DNA of 64,000 nt from the NCBI GenBank assembly GCA_015999875.1, contig JAECRG010000001.1:107330-171329 (forward strand). The letters run 5' to 3'. This document shows, piece after piece, positions 27,632-45,275 of the stretch. The position numbers were made by a program, and so were the translations under genes. Within the stretch, counting starts at the first letter, position 1. Each line of letters starts with the position of its first letter. This stretch comes from Candidatus Saccharimonadota bacterium. Its GTDB lineage: Bacteria; Patescibacteriota; Saccharimonadia; Saccharimonadales; Saccharimonadaceae. The notes beneath the pieces are model-generated. The model saw only the letters and a program-made list of their open reading frames with translations. It was not told where the DNA came from and searched no databases.

Positions 27632-28318
27632 TTACTCTACAGCAATAGCCCTGATGGTAACGCGTTGATCATAGGTATTTTTTGCAGGCACCCAATTTCC
27701 AGTACATGATATCAGATTGAGTCCTTCTGATACATCACTCGCAGACTCAGACATTCTCTTCATCCCACCACTATTAAGGTCGTCGAGGGAAAGCGTTTTG
27801 TTTTCGGCAACCTCGTAGGTATACTTTTTGCCATCGCCACGTTCTATCGTAATCTGATCGCCTAGTTTGAGCTCAGGAAGTTTTTCAAACACGCCGCCTT
27901 TTGTGGGTCCACCATTATGACCATCGAGTAGCAAAGCACTACTACCTGATCCTGGAGTTGCACTTTTGTCATACCATCCGACATCAAATATATTTTTAGG
28001 TGTATCAAGTTCTCCGTTTGATTTCACACCCACCGACATCACACGTGCACTATCCACACCGAGTGCGGGTATCGATATATAGCGTGGGAGGTTCGCAGGC
28101 ACCTTGTGAGAGTCTTTTTGCTCACTGGTGACAGTAGATTCATCTACTTCAGGGTTAGCCGCTGCAAAGGCTACTGGGATAGGCGGTTGTTCTCCGGTAG
28201 TGTAATAGCGATAGCCAAACCAGCCTGCAACAACAAGTAGGACTACTAGCACGATTCCTACTATCCATGGGGTGAATCGAAATCCATTTTGTTGCTCTAT
28301 TCGTAGACCTGTTGCCAC
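27632..28318 (-). CDS. class E/F-type sortase
   Basis: The 228-residue protein has a membrane anchor (about 18-36) and an external sortase domain. Catalytic residues are visible: His134 in 'LLLDGHNGGPTKGG', Cys205 in 'NLISCTGNW' and Arg219 in 'YDQRVTIRA'. Sortases join secreted proteins to the cell wall or to each other. It follows secY on the same strand by 26 nt, in the place where adk and map usually lie. The window shows no obvious LPxTG-type substrate. Confidence 0.88.
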   Translation of the reverse strand: MATGLRIEQQNGFRFTPWIVGIVLVVLLVVAGWFGYRYYTTGEQPPIPVAFAAANPEVDESTVTSEQKDSHKVPANLPRYISIPALGVDSARVMSVGVKSNGELDTPKNIFDVGWYDKSATPGSGSSALLLDGHNGGPTKGGVFEKLPELKLGDQITIERGDGKKYTYEVAENKTLSLDDLNSGGMKRMSESASDVSEGLNLISCTGNWVPAKNTYDQRVTIRAIAVE

Positions 28319-31427: not shown

Positions 31428-31961
31428 TTACTTACCTGCCTTTCCTGCCTTGCGAAGGACAACTTCGTCAGCATATTTAATACCTTTGCCCTTATACGGC
31501 TCAGGTTTTTTCAATGAACGAATTTCTGCAGCAACTTGTCCAACCTGCTGCTTGTCGATGCCAGTCACAGTGATTGCCATCTTCTCGCTCGTGATAGTCA
31601 CGCCGGCAGGAGCTTTGTACTTAACAGGGTGGCTAAAGCCAAGAGCCATATCAAGTTCGTTGTTGCTGGTAGCGACACGGAAACCAACGCCGTTAACTTC
31701 GAGTTTCTTTTCGAAACCTTGGGTTACGCCTACAACTGCGTTGTTGAGCAATGCTCGTTGCAATCCGTGCTGCGCTTTTGCGATGCGCTCATCGTCATTT
31801 CGTGTAACTGTCGCTACACCTTCATCTACGGCAACTGTCACGTCGCTCAGATGTGGTACGGTAAGTTCGCCTTTGGCGCCTTTGACCGTGATAACATCTG
31901 AATCGACCGTGATTGTCACGCCTGATGGAATCTCAATTGGTAGTTTTCCGATTCGACTCAT
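31428..31961 (-). CDS. rplF: 50S ribosomal protein L6
   Basis: The 177-residue product begins MSRIGKLPIEIPSGVTITVD and has two repeated folds with the tail 'KPEPYKGKGIKYADEVVLRK'. It lies near the factor-binding site. It does not directly follow rpsH as usual; a HEPN gene and its own promoter intervene. Confidence 0.97.
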   Translation of the reverse strand: MSRIGKLPIEIPSGVTITVDSDVITVKGAKGELTVPHLSDVTVAVDEGVATVTRNDDERIAKAQHGLQRALLNNAVVGVTQGFEKKLEVNGVGFRVATSNNELDMALGFSHPVKYKAPAGVTITSEKMAITVTGIDKQQVGQVAAEIRSLKKPEPYKGKGIKYADEVVLRKAGKAGK

Positions 31962-32070
31962 ACTTACCTTTCTTTACAGGCAAGCGAAATGTTTGTTTCT
32001 GGGCTAACACATCTCTTAGAAATGTGAGCGCAAAATCTCCCGATTTCACTCGCAAATTATTATCCTGACA

Positions 32071-32099
32071 ATTGTAGCACACTAGTGTTATTTAGTAAA
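32071..32099 (-). promoter_or_regulatory. secondary promoter driving rplF-rplO
   Basis: TTTACT (32094-32099), 17 nt, and an extended -10 TGCTACAAT (hexamer 32071-32076) read on the minus strand. The roughly 100-nt leader contains complementary AAATC/GATTT arms that could form a hairpin. Confidence 0.65.
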
Positions 32100-32117: not shown

Positions 32118-32870
32118 TTAACCTATCCCGTCAATCTTTAGGCCTTTTTTAGTAATCGTATCTTCAATAACACAAAAAAGGGCAATGAAATCATCCTTCG
32201 CTTCATCGTACAGTGATTTTGTGATTACTATCCTTTCTCCCTCTCGCTCTGTTTCGCTTGCTACTATCTTTTTTGAGTTATTAAGGTACCTAGCGTCTAC
32301 GACTCCGTCAGAATGCACCAAAACATGCCGCTTCATCCAGATAAGAGCTATCCTTTTTAGTAAATCTTCATTATCGCTTGATATGTCTATCCCAAACATT
32401 CTTTGAAAAGTTGCTGCGGTAGTCTGTATATTTTGAAAGTTTATTTTTTCATTTGCATTTTTGTTATTAAATATCTGCCTTATGACACTTTCAGCCAGCT
32501 GAATAGAGACAAAATCTCCCTGCTCATTTTTCTCAATAATTTTCTTCATCTCATCTAGCGTAAACACTATTCCGCCAATATTGTTCATCTTTATCAAGTT
32601 TTCCAATATTAGGTCTTCTAGCACATCTTTCAAAAGCGCTTCAACGCCCCCGGTCATGAGTATGAATGCCTGTGTGTGAAGTGAATCTGATAACTCCTGT
32701 TGTTTTGCCTTAGCTGATTTTTTTGTTTTGTCGTACAGAGCCATTTTATCCTGGGAAACATTAGCCGCCACTAACACCCCCCTGTAAACTTCATGGAGCG
32801 AGCTATACGATTCAAATATAACCTTTAATGATTCAGTGCGACTATAGAAAGCTTCGACAATTTTCCCCAT
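32118..32870 (-). CDS. HEPN-domain protein, putative ribonuclease, inserted in the spc operon
   Basis: The 250-residue product is mostly helical, with the HEPN catalytic motif R-x4-H at Arg181-His186 in 'WMKRHVLVHSDGVVDARYL'. That wording resembles the RiboL-PSP/MAE-type HEPN proteins found in defence and toxin systems. An N-terminal helical half (1-100) contains 'TQAFILMTGGVEALLKDVLE'. No antitoxin or nucleotidyltransferase partner is next to it. It has its own TATACT box (32889-32894) and a strong AGGAGG 5 nt before the ATG. It is visibly AT-richer than the ribosomal genes on both sides, which suggests transfer. The RNase activity is inferred from the motif only. Confidence 0.75.
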   Translation of the reverse strand: MGKIVEAFYSRTESLKVIFESYSSLHEVYRGVLVAANVSQDKMALYDKTKKSAKAKQQELSDSLHTQAFILMTGGVEALLKDVLEDLILENLIKMNNIGGIVFTLDEMKKIIEKNEQGDFVSIQLAESVIRQIFNNKNANEKINFQNIQTTAATFQRMFGIDISSDNEDLLKRIALIWMKRHVLVHSDGVVDARYLNNSKKIVASETEREGERIVITKSLYDEAKDDFIALFCVIEDTITKKGLKIDGIG

Positions 32871-32875
32871 TAGAC

Positions 32876-32894
32876 CCTCCTTTCTCCCAGTATA
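32876..32894 (-). promoter_or_regulatory. -10 box and ribosome-binding site of the HEPN gene
   Basis: TATACT (32889-32894) lies just downstream of the rpsH terminator, and AGGAGG (32876-32881) is 5 nt from the ATG. The transcript would start about at the ribosome-binding site. Confidence 0.6.
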
Positions 32895-32897
32895 ACC

Positions 32898-32925
32898 AAA
32901 AAACTCCCCTTGCGAGGAGTTTTTT
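32898..32925 (-). terminator. terminator after rpsH
   Basis: Arms AAAAAACTCC and GGAGTTTTTT with an 8-nt loop end in six T on the minus strand, splitting the spc operon before the HEPN gene. Confidence 0.85.
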
Positions 32926-32941
32926 GAACTAAAGCCTGATT

Positions 32942-33343
32942 CTAGTAAACCTTGAGAAGTAGTTCACCACCAAGACCCTGCTTGACAGCTTCACGTCCAG
33001 TAATAACACCCTGAGATGTTGAAACTAGTACGATACCACGTCCGCTCTTTACCTTAGGAATCTCATCTGCTTTTACGTAGACGCGACGACCTGGCTTAGA
33101 AAGACGGGTAATTTCGTTGATAGTGCTGTTTTCACCTGGTTTGTTGATTGTGATTACGATTGTGTCGCGTGGCTTACCAGCTTCACGTTTTACCTCAGCG
33201 AGGTAGCCGCTCTTTTTGAGCTGCTTCGCAATCACTTCTTTGATTTTGCTCGCAGGAACGCGAACTTCTGTTTTACCAACCATCTTAGCGTTTCGAATAC
33301 GGGTTAGAAGGTCGGCTATTGGATCTGTAGTTTGCATAGACAT
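32942..33343 (-). CDS. rpsH: 30S ribosomal protein S8
   Basis: The 133-residue product has 'DPIADLLTRIRNAKMVGKTE' and 'SRPG'-type segment 'LSKPGRRVYVKADEIP', ending 'VISTSQGVITGREA' in near form. S8 organises the central 16S domain and in E. coli represses spc translation. Here it becomes the last gene before a terminator. Confidence 0.96.
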   Translation of the reverse strand: MSMQTTDPIADLLTRIRNAKMVGKTEVRVPASKIKEVIAKQLKKSGYLAEVKREAGKPRDTIVITINKPGENSTINEITRLSKPGRRVYVKADEIPKVKSGRGIVLVSTSQGVITGREAVKQGLGGELLLKVY

Positions 33344-42455: not shown

Positions 42456-43466
42456 TTAAATGTCTATACTACGTAGCGGCACCTCAACGCCGCCGATGGC
42501 AGCTCGCTCGGTTACCGGCATAATTGTATGCGAGACAGTATCTTCGACGGATTCAGCGCCGAGGTTATCAGTGACCTTATAGCCAAATACAAGCGTTGCG
42601 CCTGCAATTGTCGCTGGCGCCTCGTACGTCCTCGCTACACCTGAGCCATTGATCACCACAACAGGGCTTCCGCTCACCTGTCGCCACGTTCGAGTTGCAA
42701 TCGTACCGTCAGTGTCGTTGTCAGTACCCATCAAGGTAATTGTATCCCACGGTTCGATGTTAGGAATATCAAGGCCTGCATCAGCCGAGGGTATAGCATT
42801 AACTGGACGCACAGGAAGCAGTAAGGATGTGTTGCCGTCATCAGCCGTAACACCTCGAATATAGTAACCAGAGCCCGTCGTATCCCAAGCCGACGCACCC
42901 GGCTTACCAAAATGACAGTTAGCAAGCGCTACGATACCTGCATTGAATGCAGCCGAACTATAGGCAGGGTCCGCTGGAGTCTGAGCATAATCCAGGTAAT
43001 ACGCTGCGCTTACTACGCCAGTGGTGGTTGAAGCACCTGGTTGAACGACAAAACTAATCGTAACCGGAGTGCCATCCGTCGGAAGAGTTGTCGGAAAAGT
43101 ATATACCGAAGTACCCGCTGCATTAAACACCTGTAATTTACCAGCAGTATTCAGATAGATACGTGCGGCGGCTGTCGAAGCATTTCGCACCGTCATGAGT
43201 TCACTCGTCGCAGAAGGTGGCGTGCTCGGCACTTTAATAGTCATACTTATTGAATATGTAGTGTTCGTAGCAAAGCTACCCCAGACAGCAGCCGCCGTCT
43301 GTGAGGCGATGCCATTTACGCGATACCACCCGTTCTCATGAACGAGACTACTTCCAGCACCTACGCTAATCGAGCTAAATGCAGTATTTGTTCCGCCTCC
43401 TGAATTTACGCCAGTAACAACTGTGCCGTTAGGTTGTCCAAATGAAGAGTTAGTACGTAAACTCAT
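42456..43466 (-). CDS. phage-structural-like protein with lectin-like and PKD/Ig-like domains
   Basis: The 336-residue product is Ser/Thr/Ala/Gly-rich and beta-predicted. Residues about 1-200 resemble a concanavalin-type jelly-roll ('SSLVHENGWYRVNGIASQTA', 'RIYLNTAGKLQVFNAAGTSV'). Residues about 225-320 look like a PKD/Ig fold ('TITLMGTDNDTDGTIATRTW', 'VFGYKVTDNLGAESVEDTV'). This resembles minor structural proteins of phages. There is no signal peptide. It is the last of three coupled genes and starts one base after the previous stop. Confidence 0.65.
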   Translation of the reverse strand: MSLRTNSSFGQPNGTVVTGVNSGGGTNTAFSSISVGAGSSLVHENGWYRVNGIASQTAAAVWGSFATNTTYSISMTIKVPSTPPSATSELMTVRNASTAAARIYLNTAGKLQVFNAAGTSVYTFPTTLPTDGTPVTISFVVQPGASTTTGVVSAAYYLDYAQTPADPAYSSAAFNAGIVALANCHFGKPGASAWDTTGSGYYIRGVTADDGNTSLLLPVRPVNAIPSADAGLDIPNIEPWDTITLMGTDNDTDGTIATRTWRQVSGSPVVVINGSGVARTYEAPATIAGATLVFGYKVTDNLGAESVEDTVSHTIMPVTERAAIGGVEVPLRSIDI

Positions 43467-43467
43467 G

Positions 43468-44496
43468 TTATGTCGCCCTCCGCACTAGCACTGGCGCACT
43501 TGTGTCTTCATACACATTTGCATTTGCACCCGAGGCCGGAATAGTGCAAGTCGGAGTAGGATGAATACGTATTGTTTGAGTTGTATTTGTACCTTGCTGC
43601 GCAACATCAAAATATTGATCATGATCAAACTTATTGCGCTGAAAACTTCCGAGCGTTACTGCAGTTGATATCGCCGTTCCATTGACAGCGATCTGGCCAC
43701 CGTACATCCAGTTATCCTCGCAGACCATACCCGACAGCTCACCCACGTTTCGGTTGAGCTGTATGCACGAATTTGTTTGATGACAAGCTGGAGAAAGTGG
43801 CGTTCCAGTGCCATCAACATTAAGCCCGCCAGTATTACCGGTATTTTGATCAATAACACCCTGAAGCAAGTTGCCACGAATGACAATCCCTCCTGTACCA
43901 CCTTGTAACTGAATGCAGTCATTGTGCGTACCGTCAACATGCGCGCCACCATCTGGGTAAAACTTCGTCATATTTTCAACCCAGCACGAAAGGATAGTGA
44001 CGTTCACTGGCGTATCGGGCGCAGTAGCGTTAAATACGCCGAACCCATCAGTTGTTCGGCGAGTACGTACCCGCAGCGCAGTATAGTCATGCCCTTGAAT
44101 AGCATCCCAGCCATACTGTGGTGTCTGGCATTCTATAAGCGTATCTTTGATTGTTGCACGAAGAGTTCCAGCTGAGCTGCAGTGGATCAATCCCTTTGAA
44201 CCCCCTGGTGGCACAGTCTGACCCACTGGACCGCGAATATGACAATTTTCAACCAATTGGTCGACTCCGCGCATTTCGACGAACCCATTGACGATAGTGT
44301 CTACTAACTTCTGACCATTTGTCGTCATAATAACGTTGCCGTCTATTACCGTCATGGGTCGGGCTGGATCATTAAGCAAGCCAGTATTCGTTGCGTTTGG
44401 CTTGTAGGTACCTGGTACCAAACTATCCCTACTACCGCCATCTGGGCGCCCTCTTCGCTTCAATGCACCCGTAAGTGGATACCAAGTTTGTGTCAT
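43468..44496 (-). CDS. right-handed beta-helix protein, tail-spike-like
   Basis: The 342-residue product shows the repeated short strands and Asn/Gly turns of parallel beta-helix proteins such as tail spikes and pectate lyases ('GFVEMRGVDQLVENCHIRGP', 'HNDCIQLQGGTGGIVIRGNL', 'GMVCEDNWMYGGQIAVNG'). About eight cysteines lie along the coils, many for this proteome. No signal peptide is visible. Binding to, or cleavage of, a surface polysaccharide is the usual job of such folds, but no catalytic site is recognisable. Confidence 0.65.
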   Translation of the reverse strand: MTQTWYPLTGALKRRGRPDGGSRDSLVPGTYKPNATNTGLLNDPARPMTVIDGNVIMTTNGQKLVDTIVNGFVEMRGVDQLVENCHIRGPVGQTVPPGGSKGLIHCSSAGTLRATIKDTLIECQTPQYGWDAIQGHDYTALRVRTRRTTDGFGVFNATAPDTPVNVTILSCWVENMTKFYPDGGAHVDGTHNDCIQLQGGTGGIVIRGNLLQGVIDQNTGNTGGLNVDGTGTPLSPACHQTNSCIQLNRNVGELSGMVCEDNWMYGGQIAVNGTAISTAVTLGSFQRNKFDHDQYFDVAQQGTNTTQTIRIHPTPTCTIPASGANANVYEDTSAPVLVRRAT

Positions 44497-45275
44497 ACTG
44501 GCGTGACAAGCCTTACGTCAACATTATCTAGCATACCGCCAGTGCCTGACACCACAATAGCAGGCGATGGGTCTACCCCTTTCCATTGAACAGTAATGTC
44601 TGCTCGTGCAGTAGGTCGTGCCGGCCACGAGCCAGCTTTTTGCACCGTAATTGTAGAGCCCGCAGGAAGCATTTCTATCGTCAATGCAGCAGCCGTCGGC
44701 AGCTGCCCCGAAGGAACTTTACCCGATGAATCAAGCGACGCATAGCCATTCAATTGGCCTTTTTCACTTGTACTTTGTTTCGCATTTAGCGCAGTCTGCG
44801 CAGCACTACTCAGAGGTTTGGTCGCGTCACTAGTATTGTCGACGTTCGCCAATGCAACCGCGTTCTTGTCGAGAGTCTGCCATGTCTTATCGCCACGGTA
44901 ATATTGGCTAGCCGTACCTGCCGATATCGACGGCTCTTTATTTGCAAGTCCGGGAACCGTCGGAGAAGCTGCCGTACCACTCAAGTCACCCGCTAACTGA
45001 ACAGCACCTTTACTACTAGTGGTTGCATCCGCGACACCGGAAGGGTCTGTCCAGCGAAATCCGCCGCTCTGAGTACTGTCTTTGCTGAGTAACTGACCAT
45101 TGGTGCCGCCACTGACTGCAAGCTTCCCTATTGTCACCGCTCCATCTGTAATTGTTGTTGCGGTCACTGTCGCAGGCTTGAGTGTTCCATCTGAAGTATG
45201 CGCTTGCGCAAGATAATCATTCAGAATACTTCCCCAGCTGCCTGCGTCTGATCCAGGATTGGGTAATCGTGCCAT
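44493..45275 (-). CDS. phage tail-fibre-like protein
   Basis: The 260-residue product begins MARLPNPGSDAGSWGSILND and carries the low-complexity repeats of tail fibres: 'SSKGAVQLAGDLSGTAASPT', 'ASQYYRGDKTWQTLDKNAVA' and 'GYASLDSSGKVPSGQLP'. A compact C-terminal domain (about 200-260) could be the tip. Its stop overlaps the beta-helix gene start by 4 bases (ATGA). GTGGAG lies 8 nt before its ATG. It heads a three-gene operon with no capsid, terminase or integrase genes nearby. Confidence 0.75.
   Translation of the reverse strand: MARLPNPGSDAGSWGSILNDYLAQAHTSDGTLKPATVTATTITDGAVTIGKLAVSGGTNGQLLSKDSTQSGGFRWTDPSGVADATTSSKGAVQLAGDLSGTAASPTVPGLANKEPSISAGTASQYYRGDKTWQTLDKNAVALANVDNTSDATKPLSSAAQTALNAKQSTSEKGQLNGYASLDSSGKVPSGQLPTAAALTIEMLPAGSTITVQKAGSWPARPTARADITVQWKGVDPSPAIVVSGTGGMLDNVDVRLVTPV

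Follow-up and report, generated by a model that had tools for sequence, protein, structure and literature searches.

HEPN effectors and ribosomal-protein leaders

The association between restriction-modification (R-M) systems and HEPN proteins was described by Anantharaman et al. (2013), with PrrC as the worked example, a HEPN anticodon nuclease that the type Ic R-M system EcoprrI keeps in check (PMC3710099). Other HEPN proteins accompany reverse transcriptases (the RT-associated HEPN of PADLOC, RTasHEPN, in DRT/UG systems) or are paired with an MNT antitoxin. Control of the spc ribosomal operon has been described for E. coli, where uS8 exerts autoregulation at a site at the uL5 gene; for B. 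subtilis and other species, a 2024 review calls the regulation of spc unknown and sees no advance in phylogenetic work on it (PMC10931766). Ribosomal-protein leader RNAs, such as the 20 candidates of PMC7247131, are conserved structured RNAs directly ahead of a ribosomal-protein gene; the main text of that study mentions neither rplF nor Saccharibacteria, and among open-access papers none was found that names a ribosomal-protein leader at rplF or a family-wide insertion hotspot inside spc.

Both subjects meet at one junction of the window analysed here, by which we mean the whole 64,000-nucleotide stretch, where the gene order on the minus strand is rpsN-rpsH-[250-residue ORF]-rplF-rplR-rpsE-rplO-secY. 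The explanation that we prefer, with a probability of roughly 0.62, has two parts: the inserted ORF would encode a stand-alone HEPN-like effector of the R-M-associated kind, and the place that it occupies would be a family-specific hotspot between rpsH and rplF, behind which rplF restarts from a promoter and leader of its own. The HEPN part would carry the R-M/HEPN link into ultra-small bacteria. A site that collects cargo within so conserved an operon as spc would be unexpected.

Layout of the split operon

The upstream half of the operon ends with rpsH (uS8; 32942..33343, on the minus strand like all features below), assigned from its ORF and from tblastn in relatives. A terminator-like hairpin with a T run, identified by inverted-repeat and terminator scans at 32897..32926, lies 3' of rpsH and ahead of the inserted gene, as an earlier note on this DNA had claimed; the scanned stretch holds two such sites against 1.0 ± 1.0 expected by chance. 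The inserted ORF itself (32118..32870) lies on the same strand between rpsH and rplF and carries R181-x4-H186 ('RHVLVH'), again as that note had read it, followed by D192. The promoter that the note had assigned to this gene fared less well. Direct reading finds both a putative -10 (TATACT, 32894-32889) and the Shine-Dalgarno sequence AAGGAGGG a few bases 5' of the ATG (together 32876..32894), but the promoter scan missed both, and because no -35 was found for TATACT the assignment is weakly supported.

Downstream of the insertion, the restart promoter of rplF (32071..32099) consists of TTTACT, 17 nt, and a TG-extended TACAAT (32079-32071). This second promoter, also proposed earlier, is well supported by the promoter scan and by conservation, an extended -10 (TGnTAnnnT) preceding 20/20 copies of the adjoining leader, mostly 13 nt before the start of the leader model, against 4% of background 45-mers. 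It is followed by a conserved, structured leader RNA (31961..32057) that ends at the start codon of rplF (uL6; 31428..31961; ORF and homologs), with which the downstream half of the split operon opens. No convincing direct repeats flank the insertion, and its only neighbours are rpsH and rplF; the earlier observation that no antitoxin-like gene adjoins it thus holds, and this sets it apart from HEPN-MNT toxin-antitoxin pairs, since no MNT gene is adjacent.

The HEPN-like protein

In an alignment of nine members, whose numbering omits the Met, R181 and H186 are invariant in 9/9, as are N144-F145-Q146 (the NFQ motif) and D192. The protein of the window itself has no significant match in Pfam, NCBIfam or PADLOC, and no HEPN profile; the comparison with named HEPN families that the earlier note had proposed (RiboL-PSP, MAE_28990, Abi) returned no Pfam match. 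A match to LeuD (E 0.0011) falls far below LeuD's cut-off and was rejected. The PADLOC profile RTasHEPN weakly matches three relatives (E 2.6e-4, 3.4e-4 and 0.014), the best of these matches spanning the C-terminal part of the relative, and one relative adjoins a UG13b reverse transcriptase, a likeness to RT-associated HEPN systems from which the family differs in that the window protein has no match and most relatives have no RT. AF2 models of the full-length protein and of its C-terminal part (pLDDT 82.8 and 85.9) are all-helical and place R-x4-H at the end of a helix spanning residues 167–185. A sequence search of solved structures gave no match, and Foldseek with both models found none in the PDB at E ≤ 0.001, no solved HEPN among them; among viral models its only matches were two unnamed phage proteins (best E 2.7e-3, TM 0.44). 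The HEPN fold is thus unconfirmed, as models of good confidence match no solved structure, and the weak profile matches together with the lack of a solved HEPN counterpart are the reason for calling the protein HEPN-like, its membership being probable rather than proven. On motif and family resemblance it is likely a member of the HEPN superfamily and a putative RNase.

These same negative searches, and the orphan context of the window copy described below, could also be taken to mean that the protein is no longer an enzyme, or is not a HEPN protein at all, but a helical protein in decay or carried as a passenger, in which R-x4-H persists merely by descent. We consider this doubtful, as the reading frame is open over its full length and R181, H186, D192 and NFQ are all kept although even the nearest relative is just about 40% identical.

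Homologs occur in 11/393 genomes of the Saccharibacteria class, the window's own included, and the wider phylum adds four weak matches only. Identity to the window copy ranges from 19 to 42% among eight relatives aligned across most of the length. No homolog was found among viral contigs and phages, and plasmids gave one weak partial match, from Miltoncostaea, with no R-M gene named near it. The gene is AT-rich, as had been noted, its GC content of 0.377 being the lowest of the 65 window ORFs of at least 110 residues (median 0.479, next lowest 0.433). However, the family is AT-rich in every host (GC 0.34–0.43, against 0.39–0.51 for the loci), so that composition alone does not date the transfer, and dating the insertion in this way was abandoned. 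Of the earlier proposal of a transferred HEPN RNase gene, the transfer is upheld as probable by the sporadic distribution, and R-x4-H and the defence associations would fit a putative HEPN RNase.

Restriction-modification neighbourhoods and the orphan copy

The neighbours of each relative (L013–L022) were both read and scanned, and restriction genes adjoin 9 of the 10, among them type I, MmeI, type II, type III, SRA-HNH and C5 genes. The HEPN-like gene lies 3' of MmeI-type enzymes in two relatives (L013 and L015), behind HsdS in operons with HsdM in two others (L019 and L022), and behind a UG13b reverse transcriptase inside an HsdM/HsdS operon in a fifth (L018). It is found 3' of an SRA-HNH-like nuclease in L017, amid type III-like pieces in L020, and next to a C5 methylase in L021. 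Only for L016, a solitary copy, was no R-M neighbour found. Such neighbourhoods fit the R-M/HEPN association described previously (PMC3710099), and their frequency points to a functional coupling with R-M. The closest likeness is to PrrC in EcoprrI, in that three relatives encode, within type I R-M operons, an R-x4-6-H protein that would likely serve, by analogy, as a back-up upon failure of restriction; the family differs from PrrC in having no ABC-ATPase domain and a length of about 250 residues, and the window copy differs further in having no adjoining R-M partner. The protein is a probable new member of the R-M-associated HEPN-like effectors.

Individual neighbourhoods hold some further arrangements. 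In L018 (9964-16665) the UG13b-type reverse transcriptase and the HEPN-like gene form a DRT-like pair nested in the type I R-M operon. In L014 (7720-13267) the HEPN-like gene begins 8 bp past pheT and is followed by a 291-residue protein of unknown function and then by an N6/N4 DNA methylase, so that defence genes are attached to a tRNA-synthetase gene. In L021 (9937-10797) a CxxC-rich N-terminal part (PADLOC PDC-M14A, E 3.4e-14) that differs from the N-termini of the other relatives precedes the HEPN-like C-terminal part.

No R-M gene adjoins the window copy, and without the usual partner of its relatives it is an orphan. A search of the host genome (98.6% complete) for the methylase family PF02384, which scores in 13/14 control genomes, found none; PF01555 gave a sub-threshold partial match only. 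By analogy with PrrC in EcoprrI, the HEPN-like protein may be a metal-independent RNase that stays inactive as long as restriction copes and no infection is sensed; once released it would cut RNA and bring growth to a stop. The window copy may have lost its restriction partner or never had one, and would then be an abortive-infection effector sufficient in itself or else a stray gene passing through. The protein would act here independently of a partner, and the orphan offers an opening to study function without one.

The orphan state also lends itself to another explanation, in which the protein is a solitary toxin or abortive-infection effector that is wholly independent of R-M, silenced by its own regulation and acting alone. 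Consistent with this, neither the window copy nor L016 has an R-M neighbour, the host genome has no N6 methylase of the PF02384 type, and no antitoxin gene adjoins the window copy. Even so, an effector of this kind appears unlikely given that restriction genes accompany nine of the ten relatives, and C5 methylases elsewhere in the host genome would have escaped the search. An R-M-associated effector whose window copy stands alone remains the explanation that we favour.

The rpsH–rplF junction as a cargo hotspot

Comparison of the junction across relatives, which the earlier note had suggested, shows that its contents differ and that the HEPN-like gene is only one of them. Among 71 genomes of the host's family, a count that excludes five further loci (L055, L074, L082, L092 and L098), the gap between rpsH and rplF measures 7–3404 bp, exceeding 100 bp in 32/71 and 300 bp in 20/71. 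Seven other junctions of the spc operon reach at most 127 bp in the family, with three gaps above 100 bp and none above 300, and in 30 genomes outside the family the rpsH–rplF gap does not exceed 236 bp. The cargo is unrelated from one relative to another, including a GDPD phosphodiesterase with a membrane domain, HU-like, CYTH, Nudix and HATPase/STAS-like proteins, an esterase, RDD and mTERF-like proteins, and small ORFs, while some relatives have nothing there. Even four congeneric species all differ, the window carrying the HEPN-like gene and L103, L104 and L105 three other contents. Misassembly is unlikely as a general cause, since several of the genomes are single contigs. The junction is a cargo hotspot which, as far as sampled, is confined to the host's family, and it offers a fixed address at which to seek accessory genes in reduced genomes.

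This bears directly on the earlier reading that the gene owes its place in the operon to a tie between its level and ribosome synthesis. Its position inside spc, on the same strand as the ribosomal genes, would suit such a link, but a terminator precedes it, a promoter and leader follow it, and relatives carry unrelated cargo or none at the same site. Copies in relatives are moreover located elsewhere, outside ribosomal operons, even if one is found immediately 5' of rplU and another, mentioned above, 8 bp past pheT. A link to ribosome dose therefore appears highly improbable. Insulation by the terminator on one side and the promoter and leader on the other, together with the unrelated or absent cargo of relatives, argues for a generic landing place, and the hotspot explains the position of the HEPN-like gene better, as one cargo among many.

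Several junctions have features of their own. In the five loci left out of the count, the stretch of about 4.5 kb upstream of rplF holds no rpsH, and it seems that the operon is fully broken there or the insert very long. Six gaps (L105, L040, L034, L059, L076, L108) hold short ORFs of 36–72 residues in compact junctions, ending near rplF; several of these share KKEK-like tails because their final codons fall within the A/G-rich Shine-Dalgarno region of rplF, and they look translationally coupled to rplF. In seven leaderless split junctions (L073, L075, L088, L089, L100, L110, L112) rplF is preceded by a -10-like box and, after it, a short TTATTA-like stretch, possibly a second, shorter type of restart.

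The rplF leader RNA

With a first covariance model, the leader of about 95 nt was found in 20/84 loci of the host's family, ending at the rplF start codon; eight of these 20 copies were outside model building, two of the eight being weak (E 0.04 and 0.16). A second model found it in 25/393 genomes of the class, all from the host's family, one copy in each, and in 25/25 directly ahead of rplF. Its parts are a core hairpin (GUGAAAUC/GAUUUUGC), a variable hairpin, a 3' strand UUUCGCUUGCC and the Shine-Dalgarno sequence GGUAAG. Pairing in the core hairpin amounts to 98.8%, three of its pairs show two-sided changes, and its covariation score was reached by 0/500 shuffles, so that the structure of this element is supported by covariation. 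Two further pairings have weak covariation: a long-range pairing of GCGAGUGAAA with UUUCRCUYGC (89% paired, 24/500 shuffles), and a pairing of CUUGCC with GGUAAG that would mask the Shine-Dalgarno sequence (79% paired, 61/500 shuffles), of which 8/20 leaders form at most four of the six pairs. In RNAfold predictions the window sequence takes the masked form, those of L069 and L058 the long-range one.

In a tree of four ribosomal proteins (83 rows) the presence of the leader changes at least 14 times, and its divergence tracks that of the ribosomal proteins (Mantel r 0.50, 1/5000). Taken together these fit an ancestral leader that was lost repeatedly, the directions of gain and loss not being separable; spread by transfer is disfavoured, as the divergence follows the ribosomal proteins.

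The same correlation, along with the promoter being the most uniform part (20/20), is what would be expected if the conserved stretch ahead of rplF were simply a promoter and an unstructured 5' UTR, conserved through recent inheritance. Against this, two-sided changes leave the core hairpin paired, whereas slid controls are only 16–63% paired; the next hairpin varies freely in sequence and yet in 18/20 copies its fold surpasses that of shuffles by more than one standard deviation; and the hosts of the leader span 12 genera. We regard conservation by recent inheritance as improbable, and a structured leader as the better description.

What such a leader would do is suggested by its position and its competing pairings. 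It shares with the E. coli system its operon and the proposed control of ribosomal-gene translation, differing in that the E. coli site is at the uL5 gene and this leader is ahead of rplF; resemblance to the uS8 site in 16S helix 21 was limited by eye to a shared GUGAAA and was judged too weak for mimicry. It resembles known ribosomal-protein leaders in being structured and conserved, in its place immediately 5' of a ribosomal-protein gene and in its single copy in each genome; it differs from them in having no Rfam match, and is apparently a new and undescribed example. The likeliest role would be translational autoregulation by a ribosomal protein, with uS8, uL6, uL18, uS5 and uL15 as candidates. 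Where spc is split in this manner, rplF-rplR-rpsE-rplO-secY would restart from the extended -10 promoter and be preceded by the leader, the 5' strand of which, GCGAGUGAAA, could pair either locally, within GUGAAAUC/GAUUUUGC, or with the downstream UUUCRCUYGC; the latter strand, once freed, could cover the rplF Shine-Dalgarno sequence. The presence of two competing pairings, one of them able to mask this sequence, suggests an autoregulatory switch, in which a protein of the spc operon would bind the leader and repress rplF-secY, the competing pairings masking or freeing the ribosome-binding site. More broadly, and tentatively, with the odds slightly against it, the leader may be a new ribosomal-protein-responsive switch in which the strands GCGAGUGAAA, UUUUGC and CGCUUGCC compete to mask or free the rplF Shine-Dalgarno sequence, and a downstream half made self-sufficient in this way would let the host's family take arbitrary cargo, defence genes included, in mid-operon. 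A conserved rplF leader in Saccharibacteria makes the question of spc regulation directly testable.

Two further parts of the window were observed by eye. A sortase-like ORF (27632-28318) is located directly 3' of secY, where the spc genes give way to the rpsM-rpoA cluster, and at 42456-45275 three consecutive ORFs amid housekeeping genes resemble repetitive phage-tail or surface-fibre proteins.
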